DNA of 64,000 bases from Diphasiastrum complanatum (Eukaryota; Streptophyta; Lycopodiopsida; Lycopodiales; Lycopodiaceae): positions 53,695,824 to 53,759,823 of the forward strand of contig CM055098.1 in the NCBI GenBank assembly GCA_029204225.1. Direction: 5' to 3'. Below the pieces are notes generated by a model. The model ran no database searches and was not told the DNA's origin. It saw nothing but the letters and a program-made list of their open reading frames with translations. A program made the translations under genes and the position numbers. Below are positions 9,454-54,548 of this stretch, one piece after another. The stretch's first letter is position 1. Every line of letters starts with the position of its first letter.

Positions 9454-9465
9454 CGCGCCCAACAA

Positions 9466-15780: not shown

Positions 15781-17551
<1,771 letters not shown>

Positions 17552-19127
17552 TATATCAATAATCTATCACAGAACATTGTTTGATTTTCATCATCATCCT
17601 CTTCAAGATTCAAACGGATGGTATTGTCATGAAGGAATAATTTTCTTTCATATGGATCCAAAAATTCTAAATTTTTCCTTTTGGTCATATCTACGTAACC
17701 CGAATAAAGGGCCATTGGAGATGATCTTTTTGTAGTATCATTGGGAGTATAACCCAATATTTCAATGGACAAATCTCTTTTCACAAAAACTATTTTATAT
17801 GTTCCTCTGGAGTAAGTATGGCCTCCTAAACTAGCAGATAATGACTTGATGGCCATAATGACAGTGGCATCATATGGATTAAAAGATCAATGATATATAC
17901 AAATCTTATTTTCTTGAAATTTTTCAGATAATGAGAAAGAGACATATCCTTTCTCCCATGTGATACACTTCGAAGGCCTCCATGTCTCATACAAAAGGCA
18001 CCTAGTTCAAGAGCATCATGTAAAAGAGTCAAGAAAATAAATTTAGCATGATAGATAACAAAATAACCTCAAACTTCAACATTTGTTTGAAAAAAAAAAA
18101 AACAACACAATATCAATACCAATATACTATCTACTTACCAGATCATTATCATCGTATTCAACGATGTCTTTTCTGCTAATGTCATGTCCTCCAATGGCCT
18201 CTACACTACTTGAGGGGATATATTGAATCTTGGAGGATATTGTTTTTGAAATTCCCAAAATTCCTCCTCAGTAGGCAAAGTTTTTTCATAGGCTTTCGAT
18301 TTTTCAATTATGGCCTTTAATGCCTCCTTGCCAGATTTTCAATTGTCATCTTTATCATAATCTATCTCACTTTCAAGATCATTATAAGTGTAATCAATAA
18401 TGTTAGAAAATGCTGATAAATGTTGTGCAAACATTGAGAGAATTTCATCCTCTCATATATTCAAAACATCTTCTATATCGTTAAAAGAATTATAACTATC
18501 ATTATTTATAAAGTATACGAGAACATCGAGTAGAATTAATGGATTAATGGGAGTTGCAGTTGGAAGCGAGCCAGAGAGGATTATAGAATGAGGGAGAGTT
18601 TGCTCATAATCTGAAGCCATGGATGCTTCGGCTTCAATTCCTATATCAGTATCTACTTCATCTACATCATCTGGAGAAGATGTGGATGCTTCAATTATGG
18701 GAACAACAGAAGATTCAACAGACTCGTCATCTAGAGTTTCTATAGATATATAAAAGACAAATGCCATGCCTTTGATCAGAAGGCGACATTTTCTCTTGTG
18801 GATATCGCAATATATATTTCTCTTAAAATGTTCATGCAAGTTAGTGTACTTTCTATCACGTTTGTGCTTAGAGGATGGTTGAGAATATACAAGGTCATGA
18901 AAATGAACGAAACAAAAACTATCTATATCTCTAACAACCGTAGTAATAATTTGAGAAATATTATCAATAAGAGAAATTAAATTATAATGATTCTCATAAA
19001 CTAGCTTATCGATATCAAAAGGTGCAAAAACAATAGTGGAAAAATACTCCAATTTCTCAGATGGAATGTCACTGCCATTCAAAAAATCTAGAAGTTTGTC
19101 GTATGAGAACCTTGAAGAACTAGCCAT

Positions 19128-19887
19128 ATTGTACCTAATATCGGTTCAACGTGCGTGAATGATTCTGGTCGGGGCCCCACCCTTGAACAAGGCACGTGTT
19201 GATTCAATATTCAATTCTAAAGCTTCAACAAGGGCGTGCGCTAAACCGATATTACAGTTCTGCAAATCTACTATCGGTTCAGTGCACCCCATAGATGAAT
19301 GATCAGTTCAGATACTGATGACACATGTCAATTCGATATCGTAGTGGAAAAAGGATCTTGAAATCATGACAATATTAATTTTCCTGATATTTATGGCCTA
19401 TCTCAATCAGTCTCAGCCATACAAGACATGAATTGCAATCTGGGGCCTTAAATGTCATCTAATCATTGTACATGTACCTGGAATGTAATTATTGGTCCAT
19501 AATTAGTCTTTTCAATTAATCATGAGTGCTGACCCACAAACATTTATTAATGATTTGATTTTCAAGATTACAAAAGATTTCGAATTTGATGATCATCGTA
19601 TTCCATACCTCGATATCTACAATGTCCACGAGGGCAATCATTATGGATTATCGCCCTATATAAACACAAACATGATTGTAAAATTTTTTACTTTCAGCAT
19701 TTGACCAGCATGACATCAGTTCAGCGCACCCAACCCGATTGTGATATTTTTGTTCTACACTCCCACGCGTCCATTCGCTATCATCTATTTTTTGACTTTT
19801 CTGTCTGATATCGGTTCGGTGCGCCTGAACTACATTCGTAACTGGGGACCTTTCTACACGCATGTTGATTTGATATTGGGTCTGTGA
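19128..19887. promoter_or_regulatory. E1 divergent promoter with repeated 16-bp motif
   Basis: This region lies between the start of gene 2 (-) and the H3-like gene (+). It carries five copies of a motif close to TATCGGTTCAGTGCRC: 19139-19155 (+, one extra base), 19236-19251 (-), 19272-19287 (+), 19715-19730 (+, weaker) and 19809-19824 (+). The equivalent region of E3 has a closely related motif of the same length. Confidence 0.65.
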
Positions 19888-20424
19888 ATGGCCTTCATGA
19901 AGCAAACAACACAGATTGATCCTGGAAGTGTCCCAATGCAAGGAGGTTGCCAGGGAAATCTACCACTACTTTCTAGTCCAAGGGGCAGACCACATGATCT
20001 GCCATGGCTGAAGGATATCCGGAGGCTTCAGAAGACAAATAATCTTTTGATTCTGAAAGCTCACATCCAGATATCAATCAGACAGGTAACAAGAAGCCTC
20101 TCTCATAATGTGAGATGGAAAATCATGATAGTTGAAGCTCTGCACATAACTTATGAGGATTTCCAGGTGAAATTCTTTTTAGATTCTATTGTTGCAGCAG
20201 TTCATGCCAAGAGAGTGACTATTATGTCGAAGTATTTCACCATTGTGTTCAGGCTACGGAACACATATGGCAAATTTGTTGAGTACTTCAGACCAGTTCC
20301 ATCCTCTCCTTCAAAACCAGCTGTAGAAATTCAAAATTCTATTCATTTTTTAATGATAATTCATTTAGGAATTATCTATATCACTTCTTGCACCCCCTAC
20401 ACTTGCATTTGTAACTTCTCCTAA
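19888..20424 (+). pseudogene. E1 histone H3-like protein, diverged
   Basis: The ORF starts MAFMKQTTQ, aligning KQT with residues 4-6 of histone H3. A histone-fold region follows: DIRRLQKTNNLLI (alpha-N/alpha-1), a diverged alpha-2 with the AVHAKRVTIM signature of the L2 loop, then RLRNTYGKF. H3 proteins carry AIHAKRVTIM at this place, so the call rests on a strong signature at a fixed spacing. The tail is short and lacks most H3 lysines. After about 20285 a serine-proline linker begins. A decayed stretch to 20650 resembles the E2/E3 linker (YVQYEQ, then a GP...SF segment). No ULP1 part remains. It lies divergent from gene 2. Divergence from E2/E3 is high but the fold signature is kept. Confidence 0.75.
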
Positions 20425-21229: not shown

Positions 21230-21323
21230 TATACAGGCTAATTTTCTACCAATATGGCTACTCGGCTAACCCAAGTAGCCGGCTACGGGATCAATGCTCG
21301 ACTGATATGATGATACATTAGAG

Positions 21324-21350
21324 GAGTTCTCAATATCAAAAAGACCCTTT
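21324..21350 (+). repeat. E2 left terminal inverted repeat
   Basis: 27 bp, exact reverse complement of 26801-26827, starting GAGTTCTC. The preceding CATTAGAG is shared with the left flank of E3. Confidence 0.9.
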
Positions 21351-21840
21351 AAGGAATGCCATGTAGGATATACAAAAATATCAAAATAAATAAAACAATA
21401 TCGTTTATTTGCTTGCCCACACCACTCCCAAGGCCTCCCCAACTCCCAATGATCTAACCACAGTGTCTATAGTCACAGTTAAGAACTGTTAACAGTTTGC
21501 AGTATAACTTGACTAAATTCAAAAATATTCCCTCCATTGGTTACGAAAAGGGCAATATTTTCACTCGATCTAGAATATGACCGCCATCCCCAAATTTGAA
21601 TCAGGAAAAATGCAAAATGTTTACATATGCATTCCTTCCACGAGAATGGAAATATGAGCGGCAACTATCTATTGAAATGAAAAAATGAGCGGCATTTCCA
21701 AATTTGAATCAAGCATACAAGCATGGAGATTGGATTGATTGTACATAGTATATAATATAATCAAAGATGAGTATTTTGTTTTGCTTCATAGAATCTGGTC
21801 ATAGTACTTTGATGCAACTGATTACTCTATTATTTTTTTG
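21351..21840 (+). promoter_or_regulatory. E2 5' region of the transposase gene
   Basis: Non-coding sequence between the left terminus and the first ATG. It is nearly identical to 28368-28859 in E3, which suggests recent common origin. It should contain the transposase promoter; no element is certain. Confidence 0.4.
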
Positions 21841-23045
21841 ATGATGACATTATATCATCTACATGTGGATATCCCTATTGATTTGGCACCTTTGTAGAGA
21901 AGAGGAGGCAAAGGAGTTCAAATATCCGCTGAAGATTGTTCTTGTTACAGGGCAGAAGGAAAGAAAAACGTGGATTTGTGGACAGATGGAACATTATATC
22001 CACAAGATCCAAGCACTTTGACACATCCCACATTCTCTTCAATAACTCATTTAGTTACATGGATATGCAATGGGCATAGTGGATTACTAGGATATTGTGA
22101 AAGATTCCAAAACCATGGAAAACAACTTTATATGAATAAAGTTCACTTTTTAGAAGGTGAGTTAATTCGGATATCCTCTTATTGTCAGAATAGAGATTGT
22201 CATCTCCAAAAGACGTTAGAAGAAAATGAACAACTTAAAAAAAATAATGAATTATTACAGAAGATAGCAATTGATATAAAATCAGAAATAGAGCAAATGC
22301 AATCAGTCTTACAGTCTATTCGTATTGAAAACTTACAATTATTAAAGGATGTAGATTTGGTAAAGAAGAAGGCTGAAAGTAAGAAGCGAAAGCGACAAAG
22401 TTGCAAGGATATTCAAACGCTTTCAAAAGGAGTTTATCGAAATAGAAGGATCTGTGCATTCAAGTAAGCATATTCTAAATTTTGTAAGTTTTTCAATGAC
22501 ATTTGGATTTAATTTTAGCTATGGTGATATTTAGTTAACTATCTGTTTCTTTTGCAGATCTGCATTAGTAGCTCCTCGGAATATTAAAGACAATGCTTCA
22601 CTAGGAATGTCATTGGGCACAATATTGACTTGCAAATCCACTAAGCGTATCATGATGAACAATAGGATTTCAAATGTAAAGTGTAAAATAGCAGAGTCTT
22701 TGATGGTGGACCTTTAAAATATTTTAGATAAGACTATAGTTCAGGGTGCTTGTGATTTTGCAGGTATTAGTAGGGAAGCATATGCAACAATACTTAAACT
22801 AATTAGAGAAGCTTTTAAGCAAGTTCAAATTAGAAAAGTCCCAATTCCTAGGACATATCACTTGAAGAAAGAGAGGGATACATTAAACATAGGTATGCAT
22901 AAGATCACTGGAACTCCATTTCATATTGAGGAGTTGTATGAAACTGATGGAAGATCGATATTCTATAATTCATCAAACAATTTATTTGTTGATCTAAATT
23001 ACTTGCTGAGATCCATCGTCACATTCTATGATATAACCTATGAAA
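21841..23045 (+). pseudogene. E2 putative transposase, 5' half
   Basis: Exon 1 (21841-22463) and exon 2 (from 22558, after TTTTGCAG) match E3. Exon 1 keeps 82 codons that E3 lacks: a segment with CERFQ and CQNRDC followed by a coiled coil of charged heptads (about 22160-22330) and a basic KKRKRQSCKD stretch that could be a nuclear signal. Exon 2 carries SALVAPRN, the CDFAGISREAY region, and ends in VTFYDITYE. The candidate catalytic residues lie beyond the break. Stops at 21894 (CAG in E3 is TAG here) and near 22716 disable it. From 22862 the frame runs without a stop into the H3 fold. Confidence 0.7.
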
Positions 23046-23071
23046 GGTGTCCGGTATCACATAGTTCACGC

Positions 23072-24801
23072 CCATGGATAGGAGAAAGCAGACAAGGAGA
23101 GACTTCTTCTCTCCTAGCTCATCCTCATCCTAGACCTAGAACGCGCAACCGCAGCAGGTGGCTCTCTGAGATACGCAAGTATCAGAGGTCAACAGCTCTG
23201 TTGATCCCAAGAGCTTCATTCTACCGTGCTATCCTGAACATAACAAGAAATGATCTCGGACAACACGTTAGATTCACACCGAGTGCTCTTCAGTGTCTTC
23301 AAGAGGCTGCTGAAGATTATATTAGCCTTTTTTTTGAGGATTCTTTTTTGCTTGCCATCCATACCAAGAGGGTTACCATAATGCCCAAGGATTTTCAGCT
23401 TCTGATGAGAATGAGGGATAGGTACTGTAGGTTACATGTATCTCAGCCTGCTGCTCCTAGACCAACTCTTGTAGATAGGACTCATCTTCCTACGAAGCGT
23501 CCTAGGAAGCAGACAGCCCCCAAGCGTGCTCCTAAGAAAGTGAAGCCTAACCCTTCAGATTCTGTGAAGCCTATCCCAGAATCCATTGTAGATAATGTTG
23601 TTGTTGATAATGCTGTAAATATAGCTACCTCTGTTTTGGATACTCCTATAATTGCTATGGATACTACACATCCACCTCCTCCTCCTCCTCCTCCTCCCAA
23701 TTTCTATACATATATAAATTCGGATGATTATCTTAAATTTGAGAAAGACATATCGGATGCTATAGATACAATTGGTACTCCTTTTTCTTTTAGAATAGAT
23801 GAACTTGATTTTAGTATTAATTTTAGAGTTCTAGATTGCCTGGATCTCAAAGACAGACGGGATTCTATCAGTGATCCTGTGATAGAGTCCGGACTGACAC
23901 TCTTGCAATTTGACATTGCAAGAGATTCATCAAACAAGTTGTTGGTGCTGAGTAACTTTCTGCTCTAGGCCTTCAAGGAGAATAATGACACATGGTCACA
24001 GTGTCTGACAAGTGAATTCACACCAACAACAAAGCATCTGGTCATTCTTTATCATACCAAGTAAGATATATTAAGTGCTTTTTTCTGTTTTATGCATTAC
24101 ATTTTCAATTTAAATAGTTCTCAGAATTGCCGCTAAAGTACTTTCAATCTAATTTTGCAGTGGCCACTGGAGTTTAAACCTGATCTCTATTAAGAAAATT
24201 GTAAATAATATTATTAAATGTTCTTGTGTCAAGATGAATTTGGCAAGAAATATGCATAAGGATGTAGATATATACATTCCATATCTAAGTAAATATATTC
24301 CTACAGATGTTCCCCATTCCGTGGACTGGCAGATCGTTAGCTTGGAGGTAAATTCTGTCTTTCTTAATAGCATTTTGAAATCAGTATTCTAATGAAATAT
24401 TTTCAATCTAATTCATTCTGTTTCATAATTGATTTCTTGTGTGCTGAATTATTTTGCAGTCACCCCAGCAAAATGATTCATTCAACTGTGGGTGGTACAC
24501 ATTGTACAATGCCAAGTTGTTTTTTCAGTGGTTCATCCTTCAACAAGATGTTGATATTTCTAAGGTAATAAATTTTGTTTATTCTTATTTTGAAATCATG
24601 ATTAGTTTTCTATCCCGGTGATGTTATTGGCCATTACTAATACATGAATGTTCTATTTTGCAGTTTACACTTCCTGAGTACACATCAAGCTAGGTGTACA
24701 GATTTAGACAAGAAATTATCCTGAGTATACTGGCTAGGGCAAGGCTTCAGCCTCCCATTATTGATGATGGTGCAAAGGATGATGTAGTTGTACTAAATTA
24801 A
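23072..24801 (+). pseudogene. E2 histone H3 - ULP1 protease fusion gene
   Basis: Four exons: to 24060, 24161-24347, 24460-24564 and 24664-24801, all with GT-AG introns. The original ATG (23072) gives MDRRKQTRRDFF, then a frameshift; the H3 fold is read in the frame open from 22862. It has KYQRSTALLIP, QEAAEDYI, FFEDSF and AIHTKRVTIMPKDFQL. A basic linker (KRPRKQTAPKRAPKK), eight prolines and an acidic region follow. The C-terminal part is ULP1/C48-like: GHWSLNLI (catalytic His) is made by joining exons 1 and 2, then VDWQIVSLE, SPQQ (oxyanion Gln) and FNCGWYTL (catalytic Cys). The expected Asp is not clear; Asn may stand there. Known relatives cleave SUMO or NEDD8. In-frame stops at about 23966 and 24693 show decay. 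Confidence 0.8.
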
Positions 24802-24995
24802 GATAGAAAAAATATAGATAGCATAGAACAAAAATACATGTATAGACTTCATAGAAAAATATACATTGATATATCATATGTTGCTCCAGTTTATGAATTT
24901 GGGAGCACAAAATACATGTATAGATGCCCAACTTGGGCTTTCATTTATTGAATGAAAGGGTGTATACACAGATTTTTACTAAAGTTTATTTGAAA

Positions 24996-26369
24996 CTATT
25001 GTTCTCCCACAATGGTGATTGTTGTAGGTAGATCTTTGTAGCACATTATCAGCTCCTGTCTTTTTCGCATCTGTGACATGGCAAATATTAGTGAATGTGC
25101 AATTGTAAATGATGACATTTTCTATTATTTTGTTCTATTTTGAAATGGCAATAAACATAAAGTACTTACGAGTCTTCCGTTGATGATAAATCTGAAATAT
25201 GTTGGTAGATTGGTTTGTAATAGCATGAGTTCTGTTTTGATAAAATCAAGCTTCCAGTGCTCTTCCACCTCAACCATAGTCAAATATTCCTCATTGTAGA
25301 TAATGCTTATCTCCATTCGGTTTGTGTGATCATTTAGTTCAAAGTCTTGATCCAGTGGTAGCCATGTACCTTCAATTTTCTTGTATCTCTGGTAGCTAAA
25401 TGTGAGACTGAGCATTTGCTTTTCGATATGATAACGAAAGATCATTGAGGACTTTTTAATCCTGCATTCTATGTCATTATTTGTTTTACTATCCCAGCCT
25501 TGATCCATGAGATCTGACAAAGTCTCATCTGATAAATCCTTGCAAACAAATAAAGTTGGTGTCCTACGAACACTAGCACTCGAGAAAAAATCAACAAATG
25601 TATGCAAATGAGATAAACCAACTTAGGTGAACAATTTTCGAGCCTGTGCTTATCTTCATAGCATTTTTAATATCAATGAGTAGCTTGCATCTCAAGGATT
25701 CAGAAACAATGCTGTCAGGAGTAGGCCACTCATCACTTTGAAAACTAGGCAATGGAATTGCTTCGAGCTTGCCAAAACCTCCATTTGTTTGTGGCGTATA
25801 TAAAGATTCATAAAAATAGATACCACAATCTACAAGTTCCTTTGGACTTCTTCCTCTGTATTGTAGCTTTCCAACATCAGAGTGAATCACATCTAATATT
25901 CCTGCAAGTGATTGTGCGGGCTCCCATTCACTTATGCATGATGGATATGAATCTGAAAGAAAAAAACAATGTTGAAGCATTTAAATCATAATCTGAAGAG
26001 CATCAATAAAGGAAATCACCTATGATTGTTGTAGAGTGCATATGTTTTGATATACTTACAATTACATTTTTTATGATCATGATAATTGATATCATGTACT
26101 TTGATTTCTGAATGCATATATACATGTTGCACTAAGAATTCTGATATCCATTGATCTCTCGGGGTAGTCTTAAACTCCAAAATTTTTGCTTTCCAATAAG
26201 ATTTGTAAGTCATTTTTGCTCTTTTCTTTTGTCAAAAATTGCCCTTTGATGATGGATGCAGCAATACCCATGAGTTCTTCGTATATTTTGTTGGCTTCCA
26301 GTTATCAGCTTCATCTTTCTCATTGTAAAGAATCACAGAATCGATTGTAGATCTGGGTCTCCTCGCCAT
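24996..26369 (-). pseudogene. E2 gene 4: unrecognised protein by the right terminus
   Basis: It starts MARRPRSTIDSV at 26369 on the minus strand. The exons I infer are 26369 to about 26080, 25952 to about 25640, about 25577 to 25170, and 25070-24996, with GT-AG junctions such as AATT|GTAAGTAT and ACTC|GTAAGTAC. Two frame changes occur in exon 1. Segments include WEPAQSLAGILDVIHSDVG, LVDCGIYFYESLY, TPTLFVCKDLSDETLSDLM and WLPLDQDFELNDHTN. It ends ...TITIVGEQ. It converges with the H3-ULP1 gene (stop at 24801). I recognise no domain. Its place inside the termini and consistent splice sites argue that it is part of the element. No copy exists in E1 or E3, which are cut short. Confidence 0.55.
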
Positions 26370-26800
26370 TGCTATTTTCAAAGCTTGGGCGCCAAAAATC
26401 TCTCTGATATGTTACTTAATTTTAATTTTTCATATCACATTTAATCTAATGTGAATGCCAACATAGTCACAGTTACTGCGTATACCATATTTTATGTAAC
26501 TGTACATACTATATTTCTATAACTGTAACTAGTATAGTTAGAAAATTTCATTATACTAACCAGCATAGTAAAGTAAATTTAACTTGAGATATTGACGTCG
26601 GACAGATTAGCACGTGTCGGGCAGGAAGAAGAAACCAATGGGATACGTCCATGCTGCCTGGACACAAATTTCAAAGTTTTCTATACTGCATTTTTATTTT
26701 TTACTTAATTTGAACTACGTTACGTAGATTTCAAATCTATTCATTTTGATTGGGCCTGGTGACGGTCGAAACTAAAGAAAAAAAATAAAAGTATCTTTAC
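26370..26800. promoter_or_regulatory. E2 subterminal region upstream of gene 4
   Basis: Non-coding sequence between the gene 4 start and the right inverted repeat, with repeated short ACTGTAACTAGTATAG-like words around 26470-26560. It presumably holds the gene 4 promoter and subterminal transposase sites. Confidence 0.35.
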
Positions 26801-27492
<692 letters not shown>

Positions 27493-28258
27493 CGACCCAC
27501 ATCCTGAAGTAGTGCCGATCCCTCGGCACTCTGCCGATTCAGTAAAAGGAGCACTTGGCTCGCCACTAGTTGATCAGATATGTTGTCACATCTTCCATGA
27601 AGTTTGTGAAAATTGTCAACATTTCCTAGCTAGTTTGAGACCTTAATTGGCAATTTTTGTACATAGTTTTGGTATTGGAGTTTTACACGTGTGAACCAGG
27701 CCTAAAGTTTTTTATTTACTGTATTTTTTCAGTATGGAAAAGTGTCAAACTTTAGACCCTTCATGAGACCATTTTGATGTATTTTGGTCATATATGTCAT
27801 TTTTAGCTATTTTTCCTGTATAAGGAATATTTAGGGTCAAGTACCTTTTAGAGAGAGGAGAGAGAGTCATCTTCCTCATCCATAAATAGTAGAAAATGTG
27901 TGGAGAAACAGGCTAGAGAAACTTATTGTATTGTTGAGAGAGATCAATAAATCATTGTCACAGTTTCTTCCTCCATTGTAAGCATTGTTTTGTGTATTGT
28001 CTTCAAGCTCTTGTGTATGATCTTAGGTGCTATCCAAAAGTGCTAGGGTGCTATTCCACGACCTGTTTGCTATTATTTTTTGTTTCCATTAGTATCTTTC
28101 ATAAGTTTCTTTTGTCTCTTGAATGCTTTGTCAAGTTCATGTGTATCAAAGGTAGCATTAGGATGCTTTGCCATTTCTAGCTTTTGTAGCTTGTTGTGCA
28201 AAGATCTTAGCCAAAACATTTGGGATCTTAGATCCATTCAAGATCCACTTTTTCCACA
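27493..28258 (+). mobile_element. Copia-type LTR remnant
   Basis: Ends in ...TTTTTCCACA and is followed by TGATATCAGAGC (28259-28270), one base off the initiator-tRNA-Met primer-binding site TGGTATCAGAGC. The layout resembles the LTR end at 35048. The start is not clear. It is cut by E3 soon after. Confidence 0.5.
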
Positions 28259-28270: not shown

Positions 28271-28340
28271 TGGCTAGTCGCTATTTTTAGTAAGGTTTTC
28301 ATTTATGGCGATGCTTGGATGTGTGTTCAAGTTCATTAGA

Positions 28341-28367
28341 GGAGTTCTCAATATCAAAAAGACCCTT
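28341..28367 (+). repeat. E3 left terminal repeat
   Basis: Identical to the E2 left terminus over 27 bp. Confidence 0.88.
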
Positions 28368-28859
28368 TAAGGAATGCCATGTAGGATATAGAAAAATATC
28401 AAAATAAAAAAAATAATATTGTTTATTTGCTTGTCCCCACCACTCCCAAGGCCTCCCCAACTCCCAATGATCTAACCATAGTGTTTATAGTCACAGTTAA
28501 GAACTGTAAACAGTTCGCAATATAACTTGACTAAATTCAAAAATATTCTCTCCATTGGTTACGAAAAGGGCAATATTTTCACTGGATCTAGAATATGACC
28601 GTCATCCCCAAATCCGAATCAGGAAAAATTGCAAAATGTTTACATATGCATTCCTTCCACGAGAATGGAAATATGAGTGCCAACTACCTATTGGAATGAA
28701 AAAATGAGCGGCATTTCCAAATTTGAATCAAGCATACAAGAATGGAGATTGGATTGATCGTACATAGTATATAATATAATCAAAGATGAGTATTTTGTTT
28801 TGCTTCATATAATCTAGTCATAGTACTTTGATGAAACTGATTACTCTATTGTTTTTTTG

Positions 28860-31250
28860 ATGATGGCATTGTATCATCTACATGTGGATATCCCTATTGA
28901 TTTGGCACCTTTGCAGAGAAGAGGAGGCAAAGGAATTCAAATATCTGTTGAGGATCGTTCTCGTTTCAGGGCAGAAGGAAAAAAAAACTTGGATTTGTGG
29001 ATAGATGGAATATTATATTTACAAGATCCAAACACTTTGACACATCCCACATTCTCTTCAATAACTCATTTAGTTACATGGATATGCAATGGGCATATTG
29101 AAAACTTACAATTATTGAAAGATGTGGATTTGGCAAAGAAAAAGGCTACAGGTAAGAAGCAAAAGCGACAAAGTTGCAAGGATATTCAAACGCTTTCAAA
29201 AGGAGGTTATCGAAATAGAAGAATCTGTGCATTCAAGTAAGCATATTCTAATTTTTGTATGTTTTTTAATGACATTTGGATTTAATTTAAGCTATGGTGA
29301 TATTATGTTAACTATCTGTTTTTTTTGCAGATCTGCATTAGTAGCTCCTCGGAATATTAAAGACAATGTTTCACTAGGAATGTCATTGGGCACAATATTG
29401 ACTTGCAAATCCACTGAGTGTATCATGATGAACAATAGGATTTCAAATGTAAAGTTTAAAATAGCAGAGTCTTTGATGGTGGACATTCAAATTTTTTTAG
29501 ATAAGACTATAGTTCAGGGTGCTTGTGATTTTGCAGGTATTAGTAGGGAAGCATATGCAACAATATTTAAACTAATTAGAGAAGCTTTTAAACAAGTTCA
29601 AATTAGAAAACTCCCAATCCCTAGGACATATCACTTGAAGAAAGAGAGAGATACATTAAACATAGGTATGCATAAGATCACTGGAACTCTATTTCATATT
29701 GAGGAGGTGTATGAAACTGATGGAAGATCGATATCTATAATTCATCAAACAACTTATTTGTTGATCTAAATTACTTGCTGAGATACATCGTCACATTCTA
29801 TGATATAACCTATGAAAAGGTGAATGAAAAAATAATCATATTACTTAAGTTAGATGAGTCAGAAATAGTGAAAGGGCAGAAGATGGAGAGAGTTAGTATA
29901 ACTCTCATGAATGGCGCTCTATCACAAACGGAGAACCAAGAAGATTTCAGATTCAGTGTCCAGTTAGAAAATGATATATGGTGGTAGGTAGCATTTCAGA
30001 TAACTAGCCTCATTATTACATTACATTCATTGAATAGTATTAAATCATTGTAAACTAAGTCTGATTAATTCTTTGGACAGGTTCTGAAGGAGGATCATGA
30101 TATATTATCATGGATATTCTCAAAGACACCTTATCCTAGGATCATCAAGAACCATATGGATGGAGGACTTCTCAATGTTCCAGGAGTTGGAGACTTCAAT
30201 GTTGAATGGCACTTGGTAGGTGATTTGAAAACATTGAAATGTATGTATAATGTCTCTCACGGTGCTACATCAAAACACCCTTGTTTGTACTGCATGAAAA
30301 TGGCAAAAGATATAACTAGGAGTACAGGAATCAGTAGAGAATATGCAGATCCAAATTGGAAGCCTGTGCTGTCTATCCCCTTGAAAAATGTGCATGTTTG
30401 CACTCTTCATGCAAAAGTTAGATTAATAGAAAAGCTCATTATATTCATATAGTTTTTGCTTGGAATACTAAGCTAGCATCATTAGCAAAGGAAGCTATCT
30501 CTCGATTAGAAGATGTTTTATCAAAAGCAGGACTCCATAAGGGACATGTCAAAATTCAAAAAGATGAAAAGCTTTCAGGAAAGAATGGGAACATGCCAAC
30601 TAAGCCAAGCATAGGAGGAGCAAAAGCACGTCGTTTCCTATCAAATCATATTGGTAAGGCTTCTAATATTCAACACTCAGTCTGGACAGATATTATTGTT
30701 GTCACTCAGGACTTCAAAAAAGACAGTAAAACTAGAGTACTAAAAGTTGATATATGGAAGAAGCTTGATAGTATGATTGCTATTTTAAAAAAAGAAAAAT
30801 ACTCTGATATTGATAAGAAAGCTGTCCAAAGGACTTGTGTCAAGTTTGTTAATGCAATATCAAAAGCATGGGGAGAAGATCACATCACTCATTACATGGT
30901 TAGTATAAAATTTTCAAGATGCTTTCAATTTTTCATATATATTTAGATCCAAACATAAGACTAACATTATGATTTTGACATATGCAGCACATACTAAGAG
31001 ATCATACAACATTTTTTGCAAACACATATGTAAGCTTGAGTATATGGTCATCACAAGGGATGGAGAAGTCACATTGGCAAGCATGAGCAACATTTCATCG
31101 AAATACACAACATGGAGGAACCAATGAAAAATGAAACTACATTTGTCAATTGTTTCAATGCTTCTACCGTAGTGTTCAGATTAACAAAGTCTACACAATA
31201 CAACAAGTTTAGAAAAGCATGCAAGTTCATACAGGAAGAGAAAACTAGAT
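28860..31250 (+). pseudogene. E3 putative transposase
   Basis: Exons about 28860-29236, 29331-29997, 30081-30899 and 30988-31250. Motifs in order: KKQKRQSCKD (basic), SALVAPRN, CDFAGISREAY, LLKLDESEIVKGQKMERVS (about 29845-29900), WHLVGDLKTLKCMYNVSHGA with HPCLYCMK (about 30205-30300), HAKVRLIEKLI, IGGAKARRFLSNH, and SIWSSQGMEKSHWQA (about 31035-31085). Asp, Asp and Glu in these motifs are plausible catalytic residues, and HPCxYC may bind zinc. The broad pattern (GDLK...CxYC...GMEKSH) reminds me of unnamed transposase-like proteins in other eukaryotes, but I cannot name the superfamily. Frameshifts near 29732 and 30450 and stops at about 29986 and 31086 disable it. Exon 1 lacks 82 codons found in E2. 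Confidence 0.7.
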
Positions 31251-31386
31251 GATTGCTGAGTAGAAGATCATCATTGTCATCAAATCATGACATGTTCAAA
31301 ATTGCTTTGCAAATTCATTGAACAAGAGAGGAGAAATACTCAATGTAAATGTATTGATTGTATTATAACAAAATACAAAGTGTCAA

Positions 31387-32903
31387 CTATTCATCATCAG
31401 ATCGTGTATCAGATTCTATGGTAGTATTGTCATGAAGAAATTCTCTGCTAACGTATGCATCTAATAGATGTGCATTATTCTTATTTCCACTAAGCTCAAT
31501 ATGAGTGGAATACAATGAATAATGAGAGTTCCTTAAAGGAACATTCCCATTAGTAAAACCTAAATGTTCAAAACATAAAATCTTTTGACAAAAATGATCT
31601 TATTTGTCTTAACAAATTTATGTCCTCCTAGGTAAAATGATAAAGCTTTAACTGCCATTATCAGATTCTCCCCAACTAGGCTCAACTTGGAATGAGCAAT
31701 ACAGATCTCATTCTTCAGGAAATGCCTAAGATAGTGGCCAAGTCCACTATTCCTCTGGAACGAGGATGCGTGTTGTCTGAAACGACCTCGTCTCGCAGCA
31801 AAGTCATCAAATATGAGAGCATCCTGCAATAGGAAATATGTTAGCAAAAACACGTTTAGTGATTAAAAACATTGTAATGCAAGGAAGTTTAAACACTTAC
31901 ACATTTTTCATCATCAGCAGCAACCAGATCAAGATGATCAATATAATGACCACGTACTGAAGTGGAATCATCAGCGAAATGCATTAATGATGGATGAGGG
32001 AAGTCCATCTGGGATTGAAATGTCGTGAATTCTTCATTGGATGGTCTGCCTCGTCCATCCTTAGCAATATTTGATAAAGCCTTAGTCAGACATTCTTCAC
32101 CGATCATAAGTCCCTCCTCATCATCAAAATCAATACCAGCAACAAGGTCATCTGTTTCAAAATCTACAAAGTCGGAGAATTCAAAAATTGTGTCAGATAA
32201 TAAACATAGAACCTCATCTTCACAATAGTCAAAAAATTTACATAAATCAGCAGTAGTAAATTATACATTGTCATTAATATAATATACAGACAAATTGAAA
32301 AAGACATTTAGACTCCTCTATCGGGATGTATTCATCAGCAGATGTATTTTGGCCGATAAAAGAATCGCGGAGAACATCAGTATTTACATCAATAAAGTCA
32401 CTTTCCTTATCAGGAGTGTCAATAAGGAAGTGATTGATATCCTTAATAGCTGACTGAACAGAGGATAATGCAAAAGGATGGTCAGCAATAGATACTTCCT
32501 CATCATCTGGAATCTGAACTAAAAGGAAAAGTACAAAATCATTCTGATATTCTACCAATCGACATTTCTTGTTGCAATAAGGACACATTGAACTGCTTTT
32601 GAAAAGATCAAACAATTTGGTGAACATTCTATGTAGTCTATGTCTGAAAGCTGGAAAGAAATGAACAAGATTAGTATAATGCATGTACTGGAGTGAACCT
32701 ATGGAGAAAACAGGGTTACTAAGTATATCTCTGAATTTAACATAATGTTCATAAAATACATTAGAATTTGGTTGTGCATTCCTGAAAACATGTAGATATG
32801 GCCTGAATAGGCTGTGAAAGTAGTCTAGATTTTCAGTAATCCCAAATTCACTAAGAAATGAACTCAAGCCTGAATCTCGTGAGGATCCTGAGGAAGAGGC
32901 CAT
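31387..32903 (-). pseudogene. E3 gene 2: unrecognised acidic protein
   Basis: It starts MASSSGSSRDSG at 32903 on the minus strand, chosen over the in-frame upstream ATG at 32951 because E1 starts the same way. The protein has a CPYCNKKCRLVEY segment (a CxxC that may bind metal), an acidic middle (DDEEVSIADH; FSDFVDFETDDL), an intron around 31854-31888, DALIFDDFAARRGRFRQ, IMAVKALSFYLGGHK, and ends FLHDNTTIES...DDE at 31387. One frameshift and a stop lie near 32250-32290. It is convergent with the transposase and divergent from H3. Conserved blocks shared with E1 indicate a selected role in the element, which I cannot define. Confidence 0.62.
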
Positions 32904-33710
32904 GGAAATAATGTAGATATCACACTTGTGCACGAGGGAGAACTGAAACAAAACTAACTATCAAGATTGCGCACAAGAGAGATATATACGGCAGGTAGAT
33001 ACCGAATATCGCACTTGTGCGCAACTAGGTAGCGTTGGAAGCAAATAGACAACAATGTGCGCGCACAAGACCGATATGCCGCGAATTTTGAGAACAGAAA
33101 AAGTAAAAAATTAATCGAGTTTTGTGCCCTTTATACTAAATTTTTGCACGTGTGGTAAACGGTCAAAGGACATGTGTCTACTTTCAGTTGGACTACAGGA
33201 ACTGGCACGTGTGAGGTGACACCTGGACACGTGTGAAATGATAACTGTACACATGTCTCATGTTCATTCGTGTGTTCGACAACACGTGTCGCTCGCGCAT
33301 TCGTTCGTACAAATCTCACACGTGTAAAGTGATAGAGTGACATGTGTCGCTCTTGCATTGGACCATACAACTCCCACACGTGTGACAGGACGTTCTTTTG
33401 CACGTGCGAACCGCGATATAAAATCACAAATTTCGATGAATTTTTTTCACTTTTTTTTCGCTCCGCATATCGCACTTGTGCACATTCTTCACAATCGATA
33501 TTTTTCTTAATGCCTTCCATGCGTACAGGTCCGATACATCTGCCTACGTGTCTCCTTGTATCGCACTTGTGCACCTTTCTTCAATACTAATCTATCTCTC
33601 TTGTAATAACCTCGCACAGGTCCGATATACCGTACATTTTGTCCATACATATCGGTCTTCTGTTCATCCTAGCCGTCATGCACAACTTCACTATCCCATA
33701 GTACACGTCC
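32904..33710. promoter_or_regulatory. E3 divergent promoter with repeated 16-bp motif
   Basis: Between gene 2 (-) and H3 (+). It has eight copies of a motif near TATCGSWCYTGTGCRC: 32918-32933 (+), 32969-32984 (-), 33007-33022 (+), 33061-33076 (-), 33468-33483 (+), 33521-33536 (-), 33559-33574 (+) and 33612-33627 (-), plus a partial one at 33650. They cluster in two groups, one beside each gene start. Between the groups lies a row of CACGTGT-type words. Confidence 0.7.
33145..33405. repeat. Cluster of CACGTGT (G-box-like) words
   Basis: About nine ACACGTGT or near-identical words occur in 260 bp (for example near 33149, 33204, 33225, 33283, 33317, 33374 and 33399), at spacings of about 20-60 bp. 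CACGTG is the core of the plant G-box bound by bHLH and bZIP factors. The words sit in the middle of the divergent promoter. Confidence 0.6.
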
Positions 33711-34720
33711 ATGGATAGGAAAAAGCAGACAAGGAGGGACTTCTTCTCTGCTAGCTCGTCCTCAGCTCCTGTGGTTGCCATTACACCTCCTGCAGACCTA
33801 GAACGTGCAACCGCAGTAGGTGGCTCTCTGAGATACATTAAGTATCAAAGATCCACCACTCTGTTGATTCCAAGAGCTCCATTCTACCGTGCTGTAAGAA
33901 ACATAACTAGAAATGATTTCGAACAGTTGGTTAGATTCACACCCAGTGCTTTTCAGTGCCTTCAGGAGGCTGTTGAAGATTACATAAGCCCGTTTTTCGA
34001 AGATTCATTTTTGCTGGCAATCCATTCCAAGAGAGTCACCATAATGCCCAAGGATTTTCAGCTCCCGATGAGAATGAGAGAGAGGTTTTGCAAATTGCAC
34101 GTATCTTAGCCTGCTGCTCCCAAACCAACTCCTCTAGATAGGATTGATCTTCCTACCAAGAGACCTCGGAAGCAGGCAGCACCAAAGAGAGCTCCAAAGA
34201 AAGTAAGGAGGGTAGACACCACAGAAACCCTAAACCCTAACTCGGAATCAATTGTAGATAACACTGCTCTTGATATTGTTGTACATATAGCTACATCTGC
34301 TTTGGATACCCCTTCAATCCCTGTAGATACTACACATCCACCACCTCCTCCTCCTCCCTCAAATCTTTATACATATATAGATTCCGATGACTATCTTAAA
34401 TTTGAGAAGGAAATATCCGATGCTATAGATACAATTGGTACTCCTTTTTGTTTTAGACTAGATAAACTTGATTTTAGTATAAATTATAGAGTTCTTGATT
34501 GTTTGGATCTCAAAGACAGACGGGCTTCTATTAGTGATCCTGTGATAGAGCCCGAGCTTACACTCTTGCAATATGACATTGCAAGAGATTCATCTAACGA
34601 GTTGTTGGTGCTGAGTAATTTTTTGCTTCGGGCCTTCAAGGAGAATAATGACACATTGTCACAGTGTCTGACTAGTGGATTCACACCAGCAACAAAATAT
34701 CTGCTCATCCCTTATCATAC
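33711..34720 (+). pseudogene. E3 histone H3-like protein with linker (ULP1 part lost)
   Basis: The ORF starts MDRKKQTRRDFF, aligning KQT with H3 residues 4-6. A short tail leads to the fold: LRYIKYQRSTTLLIP, FYRAVRNITRNDF, VRFTPSAFQCLQEAVEDYI, FFEDSFLLAIHSKRVTIMPKDFQL, MRMRERF. LLIP, R-x-IT, EDY and KDFQL are more like centromeric H3, while KRVTIMPKD is canonical; loop 1 has no insertion. A TAG at 34108 replaces the CAG of E2. The same frame then continues through the basic linker, a run of prolines, the DYLKFEKEISDAI region, and KYLLIPYHT, the strand just before the ULP1 histidine. The catalytic exons are lost at the copia junction. Confidence 0.85.
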
Positions 34721-35048
34721 ATCATTAAGCAACACCAATCTTGGTTTTGGAGTCAATTCTTGTCAAATTTATCATTTGTCTTGACTATTCTTGATAGTTT
34801 TGAGTTCCTATCATATTGTAATTTGATTTCAGGCTACAGTCCATACTCTGACAAAATTTCACATGTGTGAAACCAGCAAGTACAATTCCCTTTCATTTAT
34901 GATTGTTCTTGTTAGATTTTCTCATCGAAATTTGATCTAGATTGATCTAAATCTTGTGTAGATTGATAGATCAATTGTATCTAACATCCAATCACTCTTG
35001 TGGATCATTTTAGGATCCATTCTTGGTCCAATTTTGTAGATTCCCACA
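34721..35048 (+). mobile_element. Copia-type LTR (3' part)
   Basis: It interrupts E3 and ends in TTCCCACA, directly followed by a perfect TGGTATCAGAGC primer-binding site. The start of the LTR could not be fixed. Confidence 0.6.
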
Positions 35049-36599: not shown

Positions 36600-37496
36600 A
36601 GGCTGGTCGTTTGTTGCATCCGTTAGATATCCCAGATAAGAAATGGGAAAGCATATCTATGATTTTGTAGTTGGACCTACAAAGACCCAACAATAAAATG
36701 ATTCTATTTGGGTTGTAATGGATCGGTTAACTAAGTTAGCTGCATTCATACCAGTCAAGTCAACTATAAAGGCTTCTGATTTAGCCTAGATCTTTGTTGA
36801 AAGATTATTTCGGTTGTATGGTCTGCCAAGTGACATTGTTAGTGATAGAGATCCTAAGTTCACAGGTCATGTTTGGTTAGCAGTATTCCATAAATCGAAA
36901 ACTTTTGCGAGTTTAAGTTCTTCTGATCATCCTGAATCAGATGGCCAGACAGAAAGGACTAATCAAACTATGGAAGATATTTTGAGGATGTATGGTTCTC
37001 ACATGAAATCTCATTGGGAAGATTATCTCCCACTGGTTGAGTTTGTATATAATAGTAGAAAACAATCTGCTACAGGTTACAGTCCTTTTATGCTTATGTA
37101 CGGTTTTCAACCTAGATCTCCAGTAAATGTTGAGACGAAGTCTATTAAGATCCAGAAGGTTGCTGATTTTTTGCATGATATGCAAGAAATGTTGCAAGTG
37201 GCTAAGGATAGTATCCGAAGTGCTCAGGATAGTGCTGAACACTATACCGATCTTAAGAGATCTCCAAGAGATTTTAAAGTTGATGACTGGGTATATCTTA
37301 GGAATCCAAAAGATTTTAAGACATTACGTACATGAAAGCATTATAAGCTGTCTACCCGTTATTGAGGACCTTTCAGGATTGTATGTAGAATTGGTTCTTT
37401 GGCGTACGAACTCGATCTTCAAGGAAAATTGAATGCATACCTAGTGTTTCATGTAAGTCGTTTGAAACTAAGTTTACATGATGGTGATACAGTGTA
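36600..37496 (+). pseudogene. Ty3/gypsy integrase (core and C-terminal region)
   Basis: Reading starts at LLHPLDIP, the linker after the zinc domain, and continues YDFVVGP, VMDRLTKLAAFIPV, then the open frame 36814-37335: LYGLPSDIVSDRDPKFTG, SSDHPESDGQTERTNQTMED. These carry the D, D and E of the catalytic core. The C-terminal part has KHYKLST, GPFRIVCRIGSLAYELDL and VFHVSRLKLS. The family role is to insert element cDNA. Frameshift and stops (about 36660-36790, 37335 and 37365) kill it. No RT or LTR of the same element is adjacent. Confidence 0.8.
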
Positions 37497-41879: not shown

Positions 41880-43186
41880 GGTTGTTTTGGACAGTCTTTG
41901 AAACTATGTTTTCTGATACAATCTGGACACTCAGCATGGTACTGGGTCTTAACTGGACAATCAACCATGAAGTGGTCGGTTTCACCACAGATGAAACATC
42001 TAGTGTGCAGTGGCCCGTGTATAATGGCGTAGCCATCTTGTATGGCTAGTGGGTCTGGACTTTCCGGGTGGGTAGTTATGATAAGTCAAGGAATGTCTAG
42101 ACTGTGATGGTTGTTCTTCATATTGTTGAACTGTATGTGCTTGGATAGGCCGATAACAAGGACAAGCATCAACATGATGCGTAGCCTGGCAGTGTGGGCA
42201 CCATATTGTTTTTCGTCTATAAGGTACATGTGTAGGGTTTGACTGACCAGACATACTGCTTTGGATAGACTTGAAGGTAGCTTGAAACTCATTGGTGAGT
42301 TTCTCCATCTGTAGTTGGTGTTGCTTATTAAACAACTCCAACTGGGATTTCCAAAGCTGATCTCGGGTATCCTTGATCGGCTTCAACTCATGGAGAGGAG
42401 CACGTGGTGCTTGTCTTTCCCTAGATTCGTCAACATCTAATCATTCGTCTTCTTCCTTGATGGCATCGGACGTAGCTAACTTTAGGCTTGTATATTCGTC
42501 ATTTGATTTAAGCTCGCGTCTAATCCATCTTGGAAGTCCGACTAAAAAGCAGATGATGAGCATCTGTCGGAGGACTGTTCTTGTACTTGACTTTTGAGGC
42601 GTTTGAAATGCTTGATATAGTCTCATACACATTCATCTTTTGTCATTTTGATGTTACTCAATTTGACAAAAGGAATCTCTATCAAACGAAAGGGCTTAAA
42701 ATGCTTGACAAAGGACTCTTTCAAAATTGACCAGTCTATCTTTTCGTCACGATCAAGGTTAAAAAACCAATCACGTGCTTTAGCGATCATGGTCATTGAA
42801 AACAGTTGGACCATAGCATCGGGAGATGTTTCGCCATACACATCACCTGCATTCTCAAAGATTTGCAAAAATCTTTGAGGGTCCGAAGTACCGTCAAACT
42901 TTGGTAGATCGAGCTTGGGTGTACGTCTCTCAAGATGAGCTTTGTGGGTAGCAAAAACTCTATTAGGGTTGGTTCTGACCTGTGAGGGCTCAACACCAAG
43001 AAAATGGGCTCGTGCTAGTGAAGACTCGACTCTCTCAGGTTTTTGTCCCTTGAATGGGTTTGTGGATGGCTCTTGGATTTCGGCCCGCATTCGGTAGAAC
43101 CTATGGCGTCTGATTTGTTCAGCTACAAGGGACCTGACCTCGTATGGATAATCGTCTGCAATTTCAGGGTCTTTTTGTTGGTCCAT
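41880..43186 (-). pseudogene. Ty3/gypsy gag
   Basis: It starts MDQQKDPEIADDYP at 43186 on the minus strand. The open part to 42623 contains the retrotransposon gag core: LDLPKFDGTSDPQRFLQIFE, MTMIAKARDWFFNL and SILKESFVKHF. Further frames add three zinc knuckles: WCPHCQATHHVDACP (about 42210), CFICGETDHFMVDC (about 42000) and CPDCIRKHSFKDC (about 41930), all C-X2-C-X4-H-X4-C types. It would form the particle and bind RNA. Frameshifts at about 42630, 42430 and 42010 break it, but the number of recognisable motifs shows only moderate decay. Confidence 0.78.
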
Positions 43187-44059: not shown

Positions 44060-44656
44060 GGTGGACCTGATTGCTTCGGTTGAGATCTGATCAAATTCCT
44101 TCGGTCGAGATCTGATAGGGACTCGTCGGTCAAGATCTGTTCGAAAACCGTCAGTCGAGATCTAACACAGGAGGCGTCAGTTGAGAGCTGACTGATGGCG
44201 TCGATCGATATCTAACTGATGGCGTTGGTCGAAATCTAATTGATGGTGTCGGTCGAGATTTGACTGATAGCATTGGTCGAGATCTGACACAGGAGGTGTC
44301 GGTCAAGATCTGATTGATGGCATCAGTCGAGATCTAACTGATGGCATTGGTCGAGATGAAATCTGACTGATGGCTTCGGTTGAGATCTAACGCAGGGCCG
44401 TCGGTTGAGATCTGATTGATGTCGTCAGTTGAGATTTTACTGAGGGCCGTTAGTCAAGATTTCACAGGGCACCGTCGGTTGAGATTTGATTGAGGGCCAT
44501 CGGTTGAGATTTCACAAGGCACCGTCGGTTGAGATTTGATTGAGGGCCGTCGGTCGAGATTTCACAGGGCACCGTCCATTGAGATTTGATTGAGAACCGT
44601 CGGTCAAGATTTGAGAGAGGGCACCATCGGTCGAGATTTGAGAGAGGGCACCATCG
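44060..44656. repeat. Minisatellite of about 30 bp in the 5' leader
   Basis: Units of the type GTCGGTCGAGATCTGACTGA are repeated about 18 times with substitutions and small length changes, ending at the 5' LTR edge. The last units (from 44460) vary as GGGCACCGTCGGTTGAGATT. The minus-strand translation gives a repetitive peptide with no meaning of its own. Confidence 0.8.
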
Positions 44657-53702: not shown

Positions 53703-53930
53703 TTGGAGTCGCAATCAATATTGAGTCAGGTTATTTTGAGTCATGATTATGCACTTTCAACCAATGTGAGTACTTCAAATGCCCAATTATGGCATCAAAG
53801 ATTACGACATTTAAATATGAGATCTATCTTGTACATGCATCACAATAGTATGGTTAAGGATCTAAGCATTAATGTTGCCTCCACTGTGTAGGGTTAAGGA
53901 TCTAAGCATTAATGTTGCCTCCTCTGTGTA
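53703..53930 (+). pseudogene. Copia gag-pre-integrase fragment with a 41-bp tandem duplication
   Basis: NAQLWHQRLRHLNMRS matches the LWHxRLGH motif of the zinc domain that precedes the copia integrase (here Gly is Arg). The stretch GTTAAGGATCTAAGCATTAA and what follows it, to TGTGTAGG, occurs twice in tandem (about 53852-53892 and 53893-53933). The fragment is cut at 53926 by a gypsy LTR. Confidence 0.7.
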
Positions 53931-54506
53931 GGGGGTATTCCCAACACAACGTGAGCAAAGGGATAAATTTAATAATAAATGTGTTGCGAGGGCATGGCTT
54001 CCTACGTGTATAAGTCCATGGCCCAATGAGCACGTGAGCTAATCATAAATTGAAATAATAGACTTGGGCCCTTTATAATTAAAATAAAGCTTGAGGCCCA
54101 AAGTCATTTTAAAACTTAGAGTTTACTTTTAAGAGTTGGGTCCACTTTTGTACTCACATGAATCTTGTGAATTCTAATGTACTTTTTATGGACCCTTGGA
54201 TCAAGTTGGGTCCAAGATGAATGGATAGGATCATTGTGAATATTAGCCAATAGGATTTTGGGGCAAGGGCCTTCCCCATTCATAAAAAGGCCATTTGTAC
54301 TCTATTTGCATGCTTAATGAGAAGGAGGAAACTCTACTATTTTTGGAAGAGAAACATCCTCATTTGCTATTCAATGCTTGCTATTGCTCTTGTTGTTTTC
54401 ATTTGCTTTCAAGTTCATGCTTTGTTGGTTTCATTAGTTTATGTTTCTCCCTTAGCAAGTACAATGAGCAAGTGAGCTACCCTCCCTCCTCACACACACA
54501 CACACA

Positions 54507-54548
<42 letters not shown>

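Follow-up and report, generated by a model that had tools for sequence, protein, structure and literature searches.

Why would a DNA transposon carry a gene for its own histone H3? To our knowledge, core histones are regarded as strictly host proteins. The question is raised by a stretch of 64,000 nucleotides from the lycopod Diphasiastrum complanatum (assembly GCA_029204225.1, contig CM055098.1, positions 53,695,824 to 53,759,823), here called the window, in which an earlier note had recognised H3-like reading frames inside a repeated element. The window almost certainly carries three copies (E1, E2 and E3) of one multi-gene DNA transposon, a member of the CMCT clade with an H3 variant among its genes. 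Our best explanation overall, to which we assign a probability of about 60%, is that this variant has a selected function in the element, which may be to evade silencing through methylation of lysine 9 of H3 (H3K9).

A histone H3 gene in a multi-gene element

All three open reading frames (ORFs) in which the earlier note had claimed an H3 fold match the Pfam family PF00125: the ORF at 33711-34109 (+) in E3 with E=1.2e-24 (residues 43-123), the E2 copy, inside the ORF 22862-23968, with E=3e-25, and the E1 copy (19888-20424) with E=4.5e-11. Membership is of the H3 type, with a match that exceeds the curated cut-off, and in searches of solved structures (PDB) the 60 best matches shown per search were H3, the closest core histone type.

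We searched the assembly (1.745 Gb, 5,176 contigs) with the Pfam Histone model, which gave 153 matches from 150 scored of 6,325 candidates. Among the matches listed, 13 reach at least 163 bits and the others 82.8-109.5 bits. Eight of the top-scoring loci were examined and are ordinary host H3 genes, separate from the element H3. From the lower-scoring loci we took 20 chosen for the length of their open frames, each with 10 kb of sequence and together spread over 16 contigs (7/20 of lineage A and 13/20 of lineage B, the two main lineages of the element), and all 20 lie in element DNA, with another element gene or element sequence beside the histone. A transposase match is present in 14/20, that of L024 probably coming from a neighbouring copy; at the remaining loci the element genes M or R, or element sequence, adjoin the histone. 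A second sample, chosen by transposase and so avoiding the histone bias, comprised 20 of 61 scored transposase places, each examined over 2.3 kb at the expected H3 site. In 12 of these 20 loci (A 5/10, B 7/10) an H3 fold, whole or partial, lies where it was predicted, and two of the 12 folds are complete and stop-free (L045, L048). The genome copies thus support the earlier proposal that H3 belongs to the element, as cargo or as a functional gene, and is no host gene that happens to lie next door. The refuting condition named in the earlier note, that every other copy of the element lacks H3, does not hold.

The gene set and its order are common to both lineages. Read from the left end, lineage A has transposase (+), M (-), H3 (+) and R (-), as in the complete element L018 (8,681 bp); lineage B, in the same orientation, has transposase (+), M (+), H3 (-) and R (-), as in the complete element formed by L022 and its extension L033 (8,955 bp), so that M and H3 differ in orientation. 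Between A and B, the transposase core shows 40% identity across 295 residues and 59% across 64 (L015 against L022), the H3 fold 49% and R ~30-37%. Gene M of L022 was identified by its location together with a weak match (29% across 80 aa, E 0.005), and an M exon match is found at the corresponding place in 10/13 lineage B loci (30-34% identity). In E1, the transposase, M and H3 are arranged as in lineage A, at 30-62% amino acid identity. Neither M nor R has a Pfam match over the cut-off, with sub-threshold matches only; a BAH-like domain suspected by eye in R was dropped when Pfam gave no support, and an AlphaFold model of an R exon was too poor for use (predicted local distance difference test score, pLDDT, 53). 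A tandem pair of histone copies occurs within one lineage A element, L019 (oriented coordinates 5929-6978 and 7080-7610).

Transposase and termini

The transposase of the element is a RAG1-like DDE transposase of the CMCT clade, which includes Transib and RAG1, as judged from the fold of its relative P0009 and from sequence motifs. In P0009 the putative catalytic acids are D411 and E785, placed by motif, and D508, which is present in 40/40 aligned relatives. Between the second D and the E, the C(2)C motif is formed by C528 (37/40 aligned relatives) and C531 (39/40), and the H(3-4)H motif by H586 and H591 (both 40/40). Among IMG/VR viral contigs, 19 stretches match the transposase pattern and none encodes a relative. 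The match of the E1 transposase piece to BLYB (E 0.0006) lies below the family cut-off and was not used.

The 27-bp terminal repeat described earlier is present exactly at 21324-21350 (+), 28342-28368 (+) and 26801-26827 (-), and constitutes the inner portion of a longer terminus of 35 bp, CATTAGAGGAGTTCTCAATATCAAAAAGACCCTTT. This lineage A end occurs exactly 544+540 times in the genome, and the exact lineage B termini 287+281 times; the reversed control gave 0 in both cases. The termini of both lineages read CATTAG..CTAATG, i.e. 5'-CA..TG-3', the form found in the CMCT clade. Target-site flanks were taken from nine terminal inverted repeat (TIR) pairs, two from elements followed from end to end and seven paired by spacing and strand. 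An exact 3-bp target-site duplication (TSD) is found in 2/9 pairs (TCA, AAT), one-mismatch duplications are found in L066 (3 bp) and L060 (4 bp), and exact duplications of 2, 4 or 5 bp in 0/9. Two of the nine pairs are only ~1 kb apart, like internally deleted derivatives. Lineage B termini ~1 kb apart lie at G000:C1:67871296-67872435, with the 3-bp duplication AAT, and at C4:15745948-15746971; both are probably non-autonomous derivatives.

Tail, constraint and possible function

Canonical H3 has ~136 residues and a full tail. In contrast, the lineage A histone has ~330 residues, consisting of the tail MDRRKQTRRDFF, the fold, a basic stretch and a C-terminal part, while that of lineage B (412 residues in L009) starts with MARTKQTARDPRV and continues through a long linker with serine-arginine and proline runs to a C-terminal fold. 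Only the first eight residues of the canonical tail are kept, in lineage B. Compared with the eight host H3 genes, the B start ARTKQTAR differs at 7-8/8 codons and at 0 residues; the exact form MARTKQTARD is found in 5/13 histone-chosen B copies and 3/10 transposase-chosen B windows. We collected 17 tails (10 from B, six from A including E3, and that of E1) with a pattern demanding KQT, which gave no tail in 5/20 histone-chosen copies (L015, L019, L020, L021 and L024). Residue 9 of these 17 tails is D in 14, G in two, I in one and K in none. Within the fold, all three of A, B and E1 retain R83, H113, K115, R116, T118, K122 and R129, while D123 and L126 are retained by A and B (1-3 sequences per lineage); we take these residues to serve contacts with DNA, H4/H3 and chaperones.

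A protein search with the A-type histone returned six proteins with divergent or H3.3-like folds, none recognisable as a transposon relative. P0048 is close to canonical H3 and was set aside. A possible relative of the B histone is P0049, from the fern Adiantum nelumboides, which has an H3 fold and a long non-canonical N-terminal part and is 51% identical to lineage B over 98 residues.

Selective constraint was estimated from the ratio of nonsynonymous to synonymous substitutions (dN/dS), with rows below 70% identity or 40 residues excluded. For the lineage A fold, dN/dS is 0.174 in the histone-chosen set (8 rows, 7 loci), which is biased toward good folds, as is B's, and 0.187 in a set of 8 rows from 5 transposase-chosen loci and window copies E2 and E3; an earlier run on histone-chosen and window copies (10 rows) gave 0.156. 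The C-terminal part of the A histone gives 0.38. We consider it probable that the histone is under selection for a function, rather than being an old cargo.

What might this function be? H3K9 methylation silences plant transposons. A variant without K9 and most of the canonical tail would be a poor substrate for this methylation, so that its chromatin or transposition complexes could not be marked and the element would resist silencing, a mechanism that we put forward tentatively, at somewhat less than even odds. The transposase, judging by its fold and motifs, would cut at the CATTAG ends, and the H3 variant would pair with host H4 and enter nucleosomes or an H3-H4 dimer, as its retained contacts suggest. 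The K4 module of the B histone could still carry an active mark, and the K4-type tail may be offered to chromatin readers that open the site. The histone probably acts in trans, in which case broken copies would still be able to move. A reader-tail link in a RAG1-like element is worth testing, because RAG2 reads the H3K4me3 tail (PMC8355894, in the part of the text available) and anti-silencing transposon genes are known. A more far-reaching version is doubtful: that this is a new plant superfamily akin to RAG1, whose H3, with its K4 module and aspartate in place of K9, forms nucleosomes on the element's own DNA that escape H3K9 marking or are read by the transposase complex.

Several observations weigh against a functional, silencing-resistant histone. 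Eight of the 20 transposase-chosen windows have no histone; one of them, L053, is a B element from which the histone region was deleted, and for the remaining seven no alignment to L018 or L022 was obtained at the histone position. The constancy of K4 in the 17 tails is no evidence, because the search pattern required it, and D123 and L126 are missing from E1, a lineage represented by one decayed copy. Constraint on the lineage B fold is weak (dN/dS 0.377, 13 histone-chosen rows) and weaker still among transposase-chosen rows (0.720, seven rows, with a frame-broken stretch in L044); the B linker gives 0.685. Decay after insertion weighs heavily in these values, because B copies differ little (synonymous differences per site, pS, 0.07-0.09). 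Of the five transposase-chosen A copies that have a histone, four (L035, L037, L038 and L041) carry a stop at the codon for H3 E105 (three TAG, one TAA), and the reading frame of the fifth, L039, is damaged; an intact histone is therefore not needed in cis. The E105 stops mark either a stop-bearing subfamily that moves with help in trans or a histone that is unneeded. Finally, the H3 fold tree decides neither between one and several captures nor on a link to the centromeric variant CENH3.

One rival reading is that a captured host H3 was amplified by hitch-hiking and is of no use to the element. The fold stop shared by several A copies and the weak constraint in B fit such a passenger, for which a fungal hAT transposon with inactivated H3-like copies offers a precedent (PMC6710886, as far as its available text goes). 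A pure passenger should decay, so the low dN/dS of the A fold (0.17-0.19) counts against it; H3 moreover co-occurs with M, R and the transposase in two lineages as far apart as A and B and, with M and the transposase, in a third (E1), and the B tail is kept despite changes in nearly all of its codons. We therefore regard the passenger as unlikely. That the histone is instead a mere neighbour, a host gene or pseudogene adjoining or inserted in a repeat by chance, has nothing in its favour beyond the general abundance of H3 genes, and is refuted by both genome samples; the eight host H3 genes examined are also distinct. We give it practically no weight.

Two further proposals accept a functional histone and differ about its role. 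Descent from CENH3, which would direct the element, or the insertions it makes, to the chromatin of centromeres, is improbable. With an Arabidopsis CENH3 sequence as reference, A65 and S107 are common to A, B, E1 and plant CENH3, which also shares P63 with A and B, and D98 and F124 with A and E1; lineage A also has one extra residue in loop 1. That residue is, however, placed elsewhere than the two residues inserted in CENH3, loop 1 of B and E1 has no insertion at all, B begins with canonical ARTKQTAR rather than a CENH3 tail, and the fold is no less similar to host H3 (53% identity) than to CENH3 (48-50%). The protein might also serve as a structural part of the transpososome, bending or wrapping the ends independently of host chromatin. 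RAG-type systems use accessory partners, the element transposase is RAG1-like and the presumed DNA-contact residues of the fold are kept. However, A and B retain H113, D123 and L126, to which we ascribe pairing and chaperone roles, and B has the exact H3 tail; together these indicate use as a histone, and we regard a purely structural subunit as improbable.

The window copies and known systems

In E3, the 35-bp left TIR (28334..28368, +) is followed by a transposase gene of several exons, now frame-damaged (28824..31249, +), with the catalytic D in KLDESEIVKGQK (29847-29882), the next D plus C(2)C at 30222-30293, H(4)H at 30390-30410 and the E in SIWSSQGMEKSHWQA (31039-31083). Gene M (31390..32957, -) encodes, in several exons, a protein of unknown function. 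The histone gene (33711..34784, +) has its fold at ~33840-34100 and a C-terminal extension to 34784; an in-frame TAG at 34107-34109 interrupts it behind the fold, and beyond the TAG the frame is open to 34784. Comparison of the region with itself by blast shows E2 (21316-26827) to be a copy of E3 minus the segment equivalent to 29823-33691. It has a 35-bp left TIR (21316..21350, +), the 5' part of the transposase (21898..23049, +), the remainder having gone in the internal deletion (junction 23049/23055), a histone gene (23074..24061, +) in which a frameshift separates the tail MDRRKQTRRDFF, at 23074, from the fold, at 23177-23443, gene R in several exons, likewise of unknown function (25125..26231, -), and a right TIR (26801..26827, -) that keeps 27/35 bp, an AG repeat replacing the outermost 8 bp. 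The same comparison identifies E1 as a diverged relative of E3. Its transposase (16053..17548, +) is 46-62% identical to lineage A at the amino acid level in three pieces, its gene M (17479..19145, -) matches all four E3 M pieces in order at 30-48%, and its histone gene (19888..20424, +) has the tail MAFMKQTTQ; gene R was not found in this copy. The three H3 copies recognised earlier are thus confirmed, with the correction that all three window copies of the element are damaged.

Elsewhere in the window, a host gene of the SMAX1/SMXL type with Clp_N, NBD_SMAX1 and AAA_2 domains lies at 4814-9465 (-). A 366-bp inverted pair (27128-27493 and 53926-54291), with arms that are 92% complementary and separated by 26 kb, brackets E3; the arms of a second pair lie at 26870-27087 and 54329-54546. 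A minisatellite-like array with a 24-25-bp unit occupies 44074-44637, and ORFs at 36814-37335 and 42623-43186 resemble retroelement integrase and gag pieces by eye, with no Pfam match at E<=0.001.

How does this element compare with known systems? Transib termini start with CAC, and EnSpm/CACTA elements have CACTA termini and a 3-bp TSD. Here the termini are CATTA, thus CAT and not CAC, and a 3-bp match is seen in 2/9 pairs. The accessible text of PMC12730594 places EnSpm/CACTA, Mirage, Chapaev, Transib, Plavaka, ESTA and Lanisha in the CMCT clade, with which the element shares the DDE order, the C(2)C and H(3-4)H motifs and CA..TG termini; it differs in the full CATTAG end and the extra genes M, R and H3. 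For the TSD, which measures 2-5 bp in this clade, the flanks show an exact 3-bp match in 2/9 pairs. From ESTA a TA duplication is expected, whereas a 2-bp duplication occurs in 0/9 pairs, and the 5-bp TSD of Transib (PMC8355894) is likewise matched exactly in 0/9. Compared with RAG1, Transib and ProtoRAG, the transposase is 12-16% identical in the aligned core, the termini are non-CAC with no exact 5-bp TSD in nine TIR pairs, and, relative to RAG/ProtoRAG, no RAG2-like gene was recognised, M and R being without a Pfam match over the cut-off. A RAG1-like transposase family that is absent from Pfam and resides in a plant genome bears on the origin of the Transib/RAG1 lineage.

A second fungal genome paper (PMC3538342) reportedly treats transduplication with the term H3-like. 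Literature searches on H3 genes in transposons and on plant elements resembling RAG brought up no RAG1-like plant element with a conserved H3 gene. The nearest published case that we found is the hAT transposon of Pseudocercospora fijiensis and its relatives, described in the accessible part of PMC6710886, with a passively captured, transduplicated H3 killed by repeat-induced point mutation (RIP). Both are DNA transposons with H3-like sequence in hundreds of copies (784 in 471 hAT elements of one fungus). In the fungal elements the transposase is of the hAT type, the TSD measures 8 bp, and H3 was acquired through a transcript or retrocopy and then disabled by RIP (PMC6710886), whereas ours has a RAG1-like transposase with no hAT domain and an H3 that stands among conserved genes in three diverged lineages and is constrained in A. 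If a mobile element has indeed retained H3 through such deep divergence, transposons would have a further, novel means of dealing with chromatin silencing. The element H3 would also be a natural experiment on what H3 can and cannot do without, the K4-type tail and the H4/H3 surface being kept and K9 discarded. Other DNA transposons carry epigenetic genes, namely TET/JBP in fungi, SET in several lineages and the anti-silencing proteins of Vandal (PMC12730594, available part), and they resemble the present element in having a gene that likely counters chromatin silencing; theirs encode enzymes or regulators, whereas here the gene encodes a component of the nucleosome itself.
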